IMG/VR virus record: IMGVR_UViG_3300027396_000101
Location: 1 to 20,830 of that record
Length of the DNA: 20,830 nt
Source of the DNA: a virus
Reading direction: 5' to 3' (one strand)
The notes under the pieces: generated by a model
The model's input: only the letters and a program-made list of their open reading frames with translations
Databases searched by the model: none
Told to the model about the DNA's origin: nothing
Made by a program: the position numbers and the translations under genes
Shown here: piece after piece, positions 2,772 through 19,011 of the stretch
How the letters are laid out: each line of letters starts with the position of its first letter
How positions within the stretch are numbered: the first letter of the stretch is position 1

Positions 2772-3029
2772 ATGGCTGGACGCAACTATGGCGCAGAAGA
2801 AAAGGCAAAATTGGAACGACTAATTAGCGAAGGTTCCACAGTATTACGTGAAATTGAAGATTTACAAGAAGGCCTAAAAGAAACTGTTAAAGCAGTTGCT
2901 GAAGAATTACAAGTAAAACCCAGTGTCATTAACAAAGCAATTAAAATCGCACACAAAGGCGATTGGCAGGCTTACAATGAAGATTGGGAAGAAATTGAAG
3001 CTATTTTGGATATTACAAAACGTATCTAA
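2772..3029 (+). CDS. dsbA: DsbA-like double-stranded DNA-binding protein
   Basis: An 85-residue acidic, helical protein, close in size to T4 DsbA (89 residues), a double-stranded DNA-binding protein that binds late promoter regions. The middle and C-terminal parts align by eye with T4 DsbA as I remember it: an Ile/Leu-rich helix, then AEELQVKPSVINKAIKI against the T4 segment with DELGVDGKMFNRLL, then H-K-x(8-11)-E-x2-E near the end. The start has a good AGGAG site 6 bases upstream. In T4, dsbA lies near rnh and gene 33; here it sits beside DNA polymerase, with an rnh-like gene at the far end of the window. It is the only gene between two promoters, so it may be transcribed strongly and alone. 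Assignment rests on pattern and size, not on an alignment search. Confidence 0.7.
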   Translation: MAGRNYGAEEKAKLERLISEGSTVLREIEDLQEGLKETVKAVAEELQVKPSVINKAIKIAHKGDWQAYNEDWEEIEAILDITKRI

Positions 3030-3041
3030 GTATAGTATAAT
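3013..3041 (+). promoter_or_regulatory. Sigma70-like promoter for DNA polymerase
   Basis: A perfect TATAAT (3036-3041) lies just after the dsbA stop. A weak -35 candidate TTACAA (3013-3018) lies 17 bases upstream, inside the end of dsbA. Transcription would start near 3048, immediately before the first hairpin of the polymerase leader. Confidence 0.6.
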
Positions 3042-3051
3042 ATATGGGTGC

Positions 3052-3104
3052 GGCAGGCCATAATCTGCCATATTAGGTATTTGCGAGCCGTAAATCGCAT
3101 GGAG
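3052..3104 (+). promoter_or_regulatory. Tandem hairpins before DNA polymerase: probable gp43 translational operator
   Basis: Two hairpins stand in the 85-base leader. Hairpin 1 pairs GGCAG (3052-3056) with CTGCC (3065-3069) around the loop GCCATAAT. Hairpin 2 pairs TGCGA (3082-3086) with TCGCA (3095-3099) around the loop GCCGTAAA. Both have 5-bp stems and 8-base loops, and the loops match at 6 of 8 positions (GCCRTAAW). Hairpin 2 ends one base before the ribosome site GGAG (3101-3104). T4 gp43 represses its own translation by binding a 5-bp-stem, 8-base-loop hairpin next to its ribosome site; that is established. That these hairpins do the same job here is inference from geometry and position. 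The loop sequence differs from T4 AAUAACUC. Confidence 0.7.
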
Positions 3105-3114
3105 AGAAAAATTT

Positions 3115-5781
3115 ATGTCTTATGTAGACGCTTGGTTTGACCGCGATAATGATATTATTCGTGTTGTTGAACGCAACAAAAAAGGCGAAAGAGAATTTAG
3201 AGATATTCCAGTTCGTCACACATTATATGTTAAAGACCCTAAGGGCAAACATATTTCAATCTACGGCGAAGCAGTAAGCCGTATCGTTTGTAAAAATACA
3301 AAAGAACTACGTAAAGAAATGGCCATTAATAGTGGCAAAACTCTATACGAAGCAGACATCAATCCAATCTTTGTTACACTAAGTGAAAATTATCTCAATC
3401 AAGATGCGCCTAAACTAAATGCTGCATTTTTCGATATTGAGGTAGACTTTGACCCCGAGCGTGGTTACGCAAGTCCAGATGATGCTTTCATGCCAATCAC
3501 TGCTATTGCAGTTCACCTACAATGGTTAGACACTATGGTATGTTTGGCTATTCCGCCAAAAGGTGTTAGCATGGAAGATGCTAAGGAAATGGTTAAAGAC
3601 TTTCCAAACACAATGTTGTTTGACAACGAAGCGGATTTGCTCATAGCATTTTTAGACCTAATACAAGAAGCAGATGTATTATCAGGTTGGAACAGTGAAG
3701 GCTTTGATATTCCATATACTGTTAATCGTGTTACCAAAGTCCTTAGCAAAGAAGATACAAGACGTTTTTGTTTGTTTGATCAATTTCCTCGTAAACGTGA
3801 ATATGAAAAATTTGGTCGTACTGCTACAACTTATGACTTAATCGGTCGTGTTCACGTAGACTATCTTGAACTTTATAGAAAGTACACATATGAAGAAAGA
3901 CACTCCTATCGATTGGATGCCATCGCGGAATACGAACTTGGCGAAAGAAAGACTCAATATGAAGGAACTTTGGACCAACTCTACAACAACGATTTTAAAA
4001 CGTTCGTCGAATACAACAGACAAGACTGTGCGCTATTGGACAGACTTGATAAGAAACTAAAGTTCTTAGACCTAGCCAACACACTGGCACACGAAAACAC
4101 AGTATTGTTACAAACAACAATGGGTGCTGTTGCTGTGACAGAACAGGCCATTATTAACGAAGCACATCGTAGAGGATTTGTTGTACCAAATCGTCCAAAG
4201 ATGAGCGAACGTGAAGATACTGCGGCCGCCGGTGCTTACGTTGCATATCCTAAAGAAGGTATTCAAGACTGGGTAGGATCATTAGATATTAACAGTCTTT
4301 ATCCAAGTGCCATTCGTGCGCTTAACATGGGTCCTGAAACTATTGTTGGTCAGCTACGTCAAACACTGACTGAAGATTTCTTGCAAAACCAAATGGCAAA
4401 AGGCAAGAGCTTTGCGGCAGCGTGGGAAGGTGTATTTGGATCATTAGAGTACACAGCAGTAATGAATCAAGAAATTGGAACTGACATTACCATTGACTGG
4501 GAAGATGGAACTAGTGATGTTGTTAGTGCCGCCGAAGTCTATAGATTGATTTTTGAAAGCAATCAGCCCTGGATGCTTTCAGCAAATGGCACTATCTTCA
4601 CTTATGAAAAGGAAGGAATTATTCCAGGGCTACTAAAACGTTGGTATGCAGAACGTAAAGAAATGCAGGCCAAGTTAAAGGAGGCTATAAATGCTGGTAA
4701 CAAAATTGAAGAAGAGTATTGGGACAAGAGACAGTTGGTCAAGAAGATTAACCTTAACTCGCTCTATGGCGCCATTCTTAATCCTGGCTGTCGCTTTTTT
4801 GATAAACGTATCGGCCAATCTACAACTCTTACAGGGCGACAGATCGCAAAGCATATGGCTGGAAAAGTCAATGAGATTGTTGCGGGAGAATATAACCACG
4901 TGGGTAAAGCAATCATCTACGGAGACACCGATTCCTGTTATTTCTCTGCTTATAAGACCCTAAAGAAAGAAATTGATGCAGGTCATATACCTTGGACTAA
5001 AGAAACTGTAGTTCAACTCTATGACCAAATTGGCGAAGAAGTAAACACAACATTTCCACAGTTTATGTTAGATGCATTCCATGTACCGAAAACACGCGGT
5101 GAAGTTATTAAAGCAGGCCGTGAAATTGTTGGTTCTAAGAGTTTGTTTATTACTAAGAAGCGTTATGCTGTTCTTTACTATGACAAAGAAGGCAAACGTG
5201 CAGACGTCGATGGCAAACCAGGCAAGATTAAGGCCATGGGTCTAGATCTTAAACGTAGTGATACACCTGAATTTATTCAAAACTTCTTAAGCGATGTCCT
5301 TGAAATGGTGTTAACTGGTGCTACAGAAGAACAAGTATTAGAACACATTACACATTTCCGTACAGCGTTTAAAGCTCGTCCTGGTTGGGAAAAAGGAAGT
5401 CCTAAGAGAGCAAATAACATTACTGAATATGAAGCTAAAGAAAAGAAAGCTGGTAAAGCCAATATGCCAGGACATGTCCGTGCAAGTATCAATTGGAATA
5501 CTTTGAAGCGTATGTACAACGACAAGTACTCGATGAATATTACAGACGGTGCTAAAGTTATTGTATGTAAACTAAAACAAAATCCTTTAGGATTTACTAG
5601 TGTTGCATATCCAGTAGATGAATTGCGTTTGCCACAGTGGTTCAAAGATTTACCTTTTGACCATGATGAAATGGAAGCAACTATTATTGATAACAAACTA
5701 TCCAACCTTATTGGCGTATTGAACTGGGATATTAAATCAACTGAGGAGAAGAACACGTTTAACAGCCTGTTCGAATTTTAA
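3115..5781 (+). CDS. 43: DNA polymerase, family B (T4 gp43 type)
   Basis: Replicative phage DNA polymerase with 3'-5' proofreading exonuclease. It has 888 residues, near the 898 of T4 gp43, so it is complete. Exonuclease motifs: FFDIEVDF (Asp107, Glu109), WNSEGFDIPY (Asp198) and YNRQDCALLD (Asp304). Polymerase motifs: A, SLDINSLYPS (Asp391); B, KKINLNSLYGA (543-553); C, YGDTDS (Asp604, Asp606); then the KKRY motif (681-684) that contacts primer-template. All catalytic carboxylates are present. The start at 3115 has GGAG 10 bases upstream. It would load on the clamp encoded about 0.8 kb downstream. Its leader carries two operator-like hairpins, suggesting autogenous control of translation. Confidence 0.98.
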   Translation: MSYVDAWFDRDNDIIRVVERNKKGEREFRDIPVRHTLYVKDPKGKHISIYGEAVSRIVCKNTKELRKEMAINSGKTLYEADINPIFVTLSENYLNQDAPKLNAAFFDIEVDFDPERGYASPDDAFMPITAIAVHLQWLDTMVCLAIPPKGVSMEDAKEMVKDFPNTMLFDNEADLLIAFLDLIQEADVLSGWNSEGFDIPYTVNRVTKVLSKEDTRRFCLFDQFPRKREYEKFGRTATTYDLIGRVHVDYLELYRKYTYEERHSYRLDAIAEYELGERKTQYEGTLDQLYNNDFKTFVEYNRQDCALLDRLDKKLKFLDLANTLAHENTVLLQTTMGAVAVTEQAIINEAHRRGFVVPNRPKMSEREDTAAAGAYVAYPKEGIQDWVGSLDINSLYPSAIRALNMGPETIVGQLRQTLTEDFLQNQMAKGKSFAAAWEGVFGSLEYTAVMNQEIGTDITIDWEDGTSDVVSAAEVYRLIFESNQPWMLSANGTIFTYEKEGIIPGLLKRWYAERKEMQAKLKEAINAGNKIEEEYWDKRQLVKKINLNSLYGAILNPGCRFFDKRIGQSTTLTGRQIAKHMAGKVNEIVAGEYNHVGKAIIYGDTDSCYFSAYKTLKKEIDAGHIPWTKETVVQLYDQIGEEVNTTFPQFMLDAFHVPKTRGEVIKAGREIVGSKSLFITKKRYAVLYYDKEGKRADVDGKPGKIKAMGLDLKRSDTPEFIQNFLSDVLEMVLTGATEEQVLEHITHFRTAFKARPGWEKGSPKRANNITEYEAKEKKAGKANMPGHVRASINWNTLKRMYNDKYSMNITDGAKVIVCKLKQNPLGFTSVAYPVDELRLPQWFKDLPFDHDEMEATIIDNKLSNLIGVLNWDIKSTEEKNTFNSLFEF

Positions 5782-16421: not shown

Positions 16422-17258
16422 TTGACAACAAAATTTACACCAGATCCTGTACTTAATACAGAAATTGACAGAACATTTAAACCTGATGTATACGAACCGC
16501 TAGGTAAACCTGTATACATTAAGAAAGAAACTGCACTTGATGCAATGGCAGGTGATGGAGGATATGAAGAAGCATATCTAGGAGATCATCTTCGCTTTAA
16601 GATGAAGCGTGAAGGTAAACGCTTTTGGGCTGGCGACAACATTAGCGATTATTTACATGAAGGCGACAAAGAACGCCTAATTGACGAGGCAACTGAAGCA
16701 TTTGAACTAGTGCTTGATCGTTTGCTGATTGATCGCGAAAACGATCCAAATAGTAAAGGCACAGCTCGACGCCTTGCTAAAATGTATTTTAACGAAATTA
16801 TGGCAGGTAGATATGAACCAGCACCAGACGCAACAGCATTTCCAAACGACACGACGGACCGTTACGAAGGTATGTTGGTTGTTCGTAGCGAGCTTCGCAG
16901 TATGTGTAGCCATCATCACCAACCCGTTACTGGCGTTGCTTATATTGGTCTTATTGCTGCTGAGAAACTTATCGGACTCTCAAAGTACACACGTATCGCA
17001 CAGTGGTGTGCAAGACGTGGAACTCTCCAGGAGGAACTTTGTAATGATATTGCTCGGGAGATCGAAAAAGCCACAGGAGCCAAAGACATAGGCGTATACA
17101 TTCAAGCTACACATGGATGCTGTGAAAACCGTGGCATTATGGCACATAGCTCGTTAACTCAGACTACTGTACTCAAAGGTGCGTTTAAAAACGACGCAGG
17201 TACAAAGAAAGAGTTTATGGATAATATTAAATTACAACAGGAGTTTGCGCCAAGATGA
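16422..17258 (+). CDS. folE: GTP cyclohydrolase I (FolE)
   Basis: Converts GTP to dihydroneopterin triphosphate, the first step to folate and to 7-deazaguanine bases. The C-terminal domain shows MCSHHHQPVTGVAYIG (zinc ligands Cys162 and His165), LIGLSKYTRIAQWCARRGTL, QEEL, and ATHGCCENRGI (zinc ligand Cys233). The usual CEHH is CSHH, and QERLT is QEELC, a variant I recall in marine T4-like phages. Length is 278, longer than E. coli FolE (222), owing to an N-terminal extension. The start is TTG with GGAG 7 bases upstream; the next in-frame Met is residue 42. Phage FolE beside QueE and a DpdA-like enzyme points to DNA modification rather than folate. Confidence 0.95.
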   Translation: MTTKFTPDPVLNTEIDRTFKPDVYEPLGKPVYIKKETALDAMAGDGGYEEAYLGDHLRFKMKREGKRFWAGDNISDYLHEGDKERLIDEATEAFELVLDRLLIDRENDPNSKGTARRLAKMYFNEIMAGRYEPAPDATAFPNDTTDRYEGMLVVRSELRSMCSHHHQPVTGVAYIGLIAAEKLIGLSKYTRIAQWCARRGTLQEELCNDIAREIEKATGAKDIGVYIQATHGCCENRGIMAHSSLTQTTVLKGAFKNDAGTKKEFMDNIKLQQEFAPR

Positions 17259-17937: not shown

Positions 17938-18161
17938 ATACAGCAAAACAAATATCCGACGAACTAATTAATCGTATGAAAAATACCACCCTACAAAAAT
18001 TTGAAATTAAAAGAGAAGTAGGGGAAAATTGGATTCCAAATGGTACTGTTCCGTTTGATATCTACGCAACAAAAGGTGTAGCAACCTTTACTGTATGGGC
18101 AGAAAGTTATATTGATGCAGAAGATCAAATAACACAATACTTGGAAAAAGACGATGAGTAA
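17934..18161 (+). CDS. Small conserved protein, unknown function
   Basis: 75 residues: N-terminal helix (QISDELINRMKNTTLQKFEI) and a strand-rich C-terminal half ending in AESYIDAEDQITQYLEKDDE. AAGGAG at 17921-17926 is 7 bases before the ATG at 17934, which also makes an ATGA junction. Overlaps queE by 8 bases. Confidence 0.7.
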   Translation: MNTAKQISDELINRMKNTTLQKFEIKREVGENWIPNGTVPFDIYATKGVATFTVWAESYIDAEDQITQYLEKDDE

Positions 18162-19011
18162 AATTAAAATCGCAGAATTATTTTATAGCATACAAGGTGA
18201 AGGACGTTACATGGGTGTACCGTCTGTTTTCTTACGTACATTTGGCTGTAATTTTAAGTGTGCTGGATTCGGTATGCCTAAAGGAGAGTTAAGTAATGAG
18301 GTTGAAGACATTTTTATACAGCATGAAAGAAAACCTTATACAAAATACGAAGAACTTCCGCTTGTTAGTACAGGCTGTGATAGCTACGCTTCTTGGGATC
18401 CTCGTTTTAAAGATCTTAGTCCTATGCTTACAACAGATGGTATTGCAGAACGTATCTGCGAAATCCTTCCATTTAACGAGTGGCAGGACGAACACTTGGT
18501 TATTACAGGCGGCGAGCCATTGCTAGGGTGGCAACGTGCTTATCCGGATTTGCTCAATCATCCCAAGATGGAAGGTTTGAAAGAGATTACATTTGAAACA
18601 AATGGCACACAACTGTTAACAGAAGAATTTAAAAATTATTTGACAGATTGGGTATCTAAGGAAGACGTGTGGAGACAAATTACATTTAGTGTTAGTGCTA
18701 AGTTAAGTTGTAGTGGTGAAACTAGACACGAAGCAATTAAACCTGAAGTAGTATGTCAATACGAAGAAGTTGGTTACACTTATCTTAAATTTGTTGTGGC
18801 AACAGAAGAAGATGCGGAGGAAGCAATTGAAACAGCAGACATTTATCGTGAAAACGGTTTTACGGGTCCTGTGTATCTTATGCCTGTTGGAGGTGTTGAA
18901 AGCGTGTACACTCTTAATAATCGCCGTGTCGCAGAACTAGCAATGAAAAACGGTTTGCGTTATAGTGATAGATTGCAAGTACCGTTATTTAAAAATGAGT
19001 GGGGAACTTAA
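18154..19011 (+). CDS. queE: 7-carboxy-7-deazaguanine synthase (QueE), radical SAM, with insertion in the cluster motif
   Basis: Converts 6-carboxytetrahydropterin to 7-carboxy-7-deazaguanine using S-adenosylmethionine and a 4Fe-4S cluster. Signs: YSIQGEG (11-17), FLRTFGCNFKC (26-36), then TGCDSYASWD (73-82), VITGGEPLLGW (116-126) and FETNGTQ. The usual CxxxCxxC cluster motif is broken up: Cys32 and Cys36 are followed by Phe at the third position, and the likely third ligand is Cys75, 38 residues later, in a sequence like the canonical CDTxxxWD. Length is 285, longer than ordinary QueE (~210-245). Lies between a small conserved gene and an oxygenase. Confidence 0.92.
   Translation: MSKIKIAELFYSIQGEGRYMGVPSVFLRTFGCNFKCAGFGMPKGELSNEVEDIFIQHERKPYTKYEELPLVSTGCDSYASWDPRFKDLSPMLTTDGIAERICEILPFNEWQDEHLVITGGEPLLGWQRAYPDLLNHPKMEGLKEITFETNGTQLLTEEFKNYLTDWVSKEDVWRQITFSVSAKLSCSGETRHEAIKPEVVCQYEEVGYTYLKFVVATEEDAEEAIETADIYRENGFTGPVYLMPVGGVESVYTLNNRRVAELAMKNGLRYSDRLQVPLFKNEWGT

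Follow-up and report, generated by a model that had tools for sequence, protein, structure and literature searches.

The DNA polymerases (gp43) of phages T4, RB69 and RB49 bind and repress their own mRNA, and T4 gp32 recognises an RNA pseudoknot (PMC3014915, PMC535899). A review of 2010 knew the gene 43 operators as hairpins only, and described the T4-type gene 32 pseudoknot as possibly the only viral pseudoknot used in translational autoregulation (PMC3014915). Here we describe a leader element before a gp43-like polymerase gene in a viral DNA from IMG/VR (record IMGVR_UViG_3300027396_000101), in which the window denotes the whole stretch of 20,830 nt that was analysed. A first-pass annotation of the window had taken this leader for a duplicated and diverged version of the T4 gene 43 hairpin; comparison with relatives points to a different fold.

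Results

The gene under the leader encodes a family-B DNA polymerase of 888 aa (3115..5781, plus strand, ATG at 3115), identified as T4/RB69 gp43-like by its matches to RB69 gp43 (E=4.8e-63), phrog_262 (E=1.3e-202) and Pfam DNA_pol_B. Upstream on the plus strand lie two hairpins, each with a 5-bp stem and an 8-nt loop: hairpin 1 (3052-3069) consists of GGCAG (3052-3056), the loop GCCATAAT (3057-3064) and CTGCC (3065-3069), and hairpin 2 (3082-3099) of TGCGA (3082-3086), the loop GCCGTAAA (3087-3094) and TCGCA (3095-3099). As RNA the loops read GCCAUAAU and GCCGUAAA, respectively. The annotation had reported just such a pair, with a shared loop, differing stems and the second hairpin at the ribosome site of the polymerase, and we found it as described. 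The Shine-Dalgarno sequence GGAGAG (3101..3106, plus strand) begins 1 nt past the second stem. The conserved unit extends 5' of the hairpins, to GGT at 3047-3049 and GGT at 3076-3078. Read as a pseudoknot, the upstream unit (3047..3069, plus strand) would pair GGU 3047-3049 with GCC 3057-3059 in a first helix, S1, and 3052-3056 with 3065-3069 in a second, S2, with loops L1 at 3050-3051 and L3 (AUAAU) at 3060-3064. The ribosome-site unit (3076..3099, plus strand) would likewise pair GGU 3076-3078 with GCC 3087-3089 (S1) and 3082-3086 with 3095-3099 (S2), with L1 (AUU) at 3079-3081 and L3 (GUAAA) at 3090-3094. Folding of the window leader as a single sequence did not predict the hairpins (z -0.57) and favoured other structure, and as such the case for the element rests on comparative evidence.

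A gene for a DsbA-like DNA-binding or transcription-regulator protein of 85 aa (2772..3029, plus strand; Pfam match just below the cut-off) precedes the element in the window and in many relatives. The promoter-like site ATTACA-18-TATAAT (3012..3041, plus strand), a consensus match only and of a kind whose count is not above chance, would probably place the 5' end of the mRNA at about 3047-3049, on the first base of pseudoknot 1. Elsewhere, the window contains genes for GTP cyclohydrolase I and a QueE-like radical SAM protein (16422-17258 and 18154-19011), as found in phages that make 7-deazaguanine, and an 879-aa ORF (24-2663) that contains long repetitive stretches of low complexity and has a weak peptidoglycan-binding match.

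The tandem element was present upstream of the polymerase in all 80 of the closest relatives, IMG/VR loci picked purely by polymerase homology (83-100% identity), and the hairpins are thus not a chance feature of one sequence; the annotation's placement of a duplicated element at the ribosome site of a gp43-family polymerase is borne out. At one of the loci (L037) an insertion separates the two, and the element lies 813-842 nt upstream of the polymerase. The candidate element is kept across hundreds of uncultured relatives. In an alignment of 60 distinct leaders, for which polymerase homology was the sole criterion, the stems covary strongly, with a covariation score of 0.395 against 0.129 when shuffled (0/500) and 0.017-0.123 when the pairing partners were slid; RNAalifold likewise supported covariation of S2. 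Changes on both sides were seen in 7 of the 10 stem pairs, and stem 2 occurs in relatives as TGCGA/TCGCA, TGTCA/TGACA, TGCAA/TTGCA, TGAGA/TCTCA and TGTGA/TCACA. The outermost pair of stem 1 is present in only 15 of these 60 leaders, which sets the conserved stem 1 at 4 bp. Covarying stems under a conserved loop are what the annotation had expected of an alignment of related leaders. It had explained the conserved loop by protein recognition, and here our data lead elsewhere.

On the 5' side of each stem, usually at a distance of 1-3 nt, stands a conserved RGY triplet that is complementary to loop bases 1-3. In the group of the window the triplet is GGY and the loop starts with GCC; among 122 tandem leaders the triplet of unit 1 was GGT 99 times, GGC 23 times and never GGA, by a counting rule that cannot return G at the third position. 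Wider searches found polymerase clades in which the loop starts with GCU, and there the triplet is AGY. Across 308 distinct leaders, GCC loops occur with GGY in 246 of 247 units and GCU loops with AGY in 51 of 52, the sole GCU exception being a spurious 3-bp hairpin; counted by polymerase, one of the two matched combinations was found in 209/209. On the tree of these 209 polymerases the triplet and loop traits each change five times, and they change together in 5/5 independent contrasts (sign test p = 0.0625, the minimum attainable for five). Since the start of the loop covaries with the triplet in this way, most of the loop conservation is accounted for by pseudoknot pairing together with an invariant AA. 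Folding by itself suffices to explain the conserved loop bases, which are not necessarily contacted by protein.

A set of 62 fixed-length units of the ribosome-site type showed covariation in S1 and in all five pairs of S2. All 496 of 496 cells were paired, S1 pair 1 was GC in 44 units and AU in 18, S1 pair 3 was UG in 57 and CG in five, and G-U pairs were tolerated, as expected for RNA. The covariation score was 0.525 against 0.225 when shuffled (0/500), in a set selected for at least 4 paired stem positions, a loop starting with GC and an XGY triplet, which biases its S2 percentage and S1 pairs 2-3 towards structure. This bias touches neither the identity of S1 pair 1 nor the alignment of 60 leaders selected by polymerase. 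From these alignments, an H-type pseudoknot of about 25 nt is almost certainly the best description of each unit. Covariation alone cannot tell helices that form simultaneously from helices that alternate, and a three-pair S1 would be weak by itself, a point against this reading; as the two helices use different bases, a pseudoknot is the simplest interpretation.

In a classical H-type pseudoknot the deep groove of S2 is spanned by a short L1, and along the shallow groove of S1 runs an L3 that contains A. The unit found here is laid out as S1 of 3 bp (RGY:GCY), L1 of mostly 1-3 nt, S2 of 4-5 bp, no L2, and L3 of usually 5 nt (NNAAN). The AA in L3 is invariant in the 60 leaders, which were aligned without a rule requiring it, and formed part of the search rule in the wider leader set; positions 4 and 5 of the loop are free to vary in the ribosome-site unit. 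Across relatives, the end of S2 lies 0-6 nt, most commonly 1 nt, from the Shine-Dalgarno core, and the start codon usually follows 9-16 nt past the ribosome-site unit. Two units were found in 77 of 210 distinct leaders and one in the other 133, and the single-unit clades retain only the ribosome-site copy. In many single-unit leaders (L300-L344, L246-L293, L376-L384) the place of unit 1, 25-60 nt upstream of the pseudoknot, is taken by a different recurrent hairpin, TCG-NNN-ACTTAC-NNN-CATGTAGA, whose stem varies (for example CTC/GAG, TAC/GTA or TTC/GAA). A motif resembling a T4-type late promoter, (A/C/T)TAA(A/G)TA, was seen 10-13 nt before the first GGY in 45 of the 77 tandem leaders.

The element occurs almost exclusively before the polymerase gene. 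Scanned with a one-unit model that had been built with the window's own two sites included, the window gave strong matches at the two leader sites only (next best E=1.6). Likewise, when ten virus records of 77-372 kb were searched with a one-unit model, every strong match fell at the polymerase leader, and a second model, of the GCU type, gave the same picture. Weak second matches in the large records were below or near chance level, and one that we inspected (L517) had no recognisable leader copy. In a pattern scan of IMG/VR that was blind to the polymerase, 77 of the 80 stretches listed led into a polymerase gene, 71 of them directly and six after one intervening gene (L094, L102, L103, L109, L122, L132); the other three (L086, L117, L131) were unrelated chance matches lacking the tandem context. 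A strict pattern of unit 2 plus Shine-Dalgarno sequence was not found in the 257 Gb of genomes of bacteria and archaea that were scanned, and a search of Rfam found no riboswitch or known leader even at a permissive threshold (E up to 10). The nearest polymerases of cultured phages are about 49-52% identical (Sinorhizobium phage Phosso), and the element is absent from six distant leaders, those of Phosso, Atu_ph07, 121Q, T2, a marine virus and a cyanophage.

Different genes can stand between the element and the polymerase. In 13 of 16 listed cases the intervening gene directly adjoins the polymerase start or shares 4 nt with it, and so it does in four more (L094, L102, L103, L122) with a small Cys-rich ORF in between; this is the layout expected for translational coupling. 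The small Cys-rich ORF, of about 46-66 aa and with a 4-nt start overlap, was also noted in L252, L255 and L362. In L291 a polymerase-like N-terminus (MSYVDAI) directly follows the element, the frame then ends, and the full polymerase starts about 0.8 kb further on, a gap that is possibly due to an intron or homing insertion.

No unit was found within 70 nt of the polymerase in 84 of 308 distinct leaders. A candidate unit lies further upstream in 15 of these, and 69 have none within the stretch examined. The element has therefore been gained or lost within the group, and is dispensable. Element-less leaders include starts that overlap or are coupled to the upstream gene and starts that are apparently leaderless. 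In four (L412, L416, L419, L422) a TATAAT-like box stands a few nucleotides before the polymerase ATG, which suggests leaderless mRNA in these lineages lacking the pseudoknot.

Discussion

The element is very probably a translational operator of some kind. Starting from what was observed (two covarying helices, their position, one target gene and a coupling geometry), we infer repression, the polymerase as the repressing factor, and cooperativity between units. The leader of the polymerase mRNA would form two minimal H-type pseudoknots in succession, of which the second lies directly against the Shine-Dalgarno sequence. A specific factor, most likely free polymerase that is not engaged on DNA, would bind the pseudoknot, the 30S subunit could then not load, and synthesis of the polymerase would stop. 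Two copies would probably raise affinity or lengthen the blocked region, and where a gene intervenes, translational coupling would pass the repression on to the polymerase. We regard autogenous control, with the polymerase as repressor, as the most likely version (probability roughly 0.58), as the element is gene-specific, gp43 of T4, RB69 and RB49 binds its own leader, and gp32 reads a pseudoknot.

Other readings have to be weighed against autogenous control through a pseudoknot. The one closest to the first-pass annotation, that these are a pair of simple hairpins which share ancestry with the T4 gene 43 operator and are read by the polymerase through a free 8-nt loop, has in its favour the same stem and loop lengths, the same gene, and the UAA in the loops, as in T4 (UAAC) and RB49 (UAAA). 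We think it very unlikely, as the loop GCC pairs and covaries with the upstream triplet, bases 4 and 5 of the ribosome-site loop are free to vary, and the T2 leader (AGCCU[AAUAACUC]GGGCU) has no upstream triplet partner and matches neither model. As such, the annotation's assignment holds for the gene, the position, the duplication and the covariation, and fails for the simple hairpin with an unpaired loop, and its proposal of diverged descent from a T4 operator finds no support in the T2 leader. An operator for some other protein, such as the phage single-strand binding protein, a RegA-like repressor or a host RNA-binding protein, has precedents in T4, where gp32 binds a leader pseudoknot and RegA represses several replication genes (PMC3014915, PMC535899). 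A general repressor should however have sites at several genes, whereas strong matches were confined to the polymerase leader, and control of the gp32 type sits on its own leader; this reading appears unlikely. At the level of DNA, the element could be a replication origin or a transcription-factor site, in keeping with its location at the end of the DsbA-like gene and near a promoter-like site, but it always lies on the coding strand just 5' of the Shine-Dalgarno sequence, tolerates G-U pairs and has crossing helices that covary, which makes such a role barely credible.

Small pseudoknots at the Shine-Dalgarno sequence are typical of preQ1- and SAM-type riboswitches, and a riboswitch that senses a small molecule, such as a nucleotide or a 7-deazaguanine, could control polymerase translation, with tandem aptamers providing cooperativity. 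The GTP cyclohydrolase I and QueE-like genes of the window would fit such a switch. Against it, the element serves one gene of one phage group, has no counterpart in bacteria by the strict pattern and no Rfam match, and shows few invariant bases beyond those that folding needs; moreover, GTP cyclohydrolase is missing in two element-bearing records (G020 and G022, both possibly fragments) and present in one that is element-less. We judge a riboswitch improbable, and a 7-deazaguanine riboswitch in particular was rejected, GTP cyclohydrolase being common in these phages yet not tied to the element. That a new class of minimal tandem pseudoknot riboswitch senses a (modified) nucleotide and sets synthesis of the replicative polymerase, with no protein repressor, would be a long shot. 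Of a similarly low order is a passive, ligand-free structure that protects the 5' end of the mRNA or tunes the ribosome site through stability or temperature. Unit 1 may indeed start at the mRNA 5' end, and an unrelated hairpin replaces it in some clades, but a passive structure would need neither the invariant AA nor exact pseudoknot pairing over deep divergence.

Under autogenous control, the leader structure would probably let the phage throttle the amount of its polymerase. With a minimal pseudoknot, in one copy or two, maintained before the polymerase gene in a large group of uncultured phages, translational autoregulation by a viral pseudoknot would have a second solution, independent of the first. 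It would also be a candidate compact system of recognition between RNA and polymerase. GCC/GGY and GCU/AGY variants occur naturally, some lineages have one copy, some two, and others have lost the element, which permits direct comparison of specificity, cooperativity and evolution.

Like the preQ1 and SAM/SAH riboswitches, the element is a compact H-type pseudoknot near the Shine-Dalgarno sequence; unlike them, it belongs to no curated Rfam family and has a single target gene in a single phage group. With the gene 43 operators of T4, RB69 and RB49 it shares a cis-acting RNA structure with an apical loop of about 8 nt that contains AA and touches the ribosome-binding site of a gp43-family polymerase gene. 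The T4-type operator however consists of a single hairpin, and nothing indicates a pseudoknot there (PMC3014915), whereas the element comprises pseudoknots, often in tandem, in which loop bases 1-3 are paired; the conserved bases differ from those of the AAUAACUC-like loop, and the T2 leader has no detectable sequence match. The gene 32 operator of T4, T2 and RB69 is likewise an H-type pseudoknot, with two stacked helices and short loops, in the 5' part of the leader of a T4-type replication gene, and serves autogenous translational repression, a role that we only propose for the element. It controls the single-strand binding protein and works together with a less structured stretch of more than 40 nt of UUAAA/UAAA repeats that includes the ribosome-binding site (PMC535899). 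In contrast, the unit described here is of about 25 nt, is often tandem, stands at the polymerase gene only, and directly abuts a Shine-Dalgarno sequence 0-6 nt past its end. A member of neither class, the element is a cross of the two, with the gene and place of the T4 gene 43 operator and the fold of the gene 32 operator.
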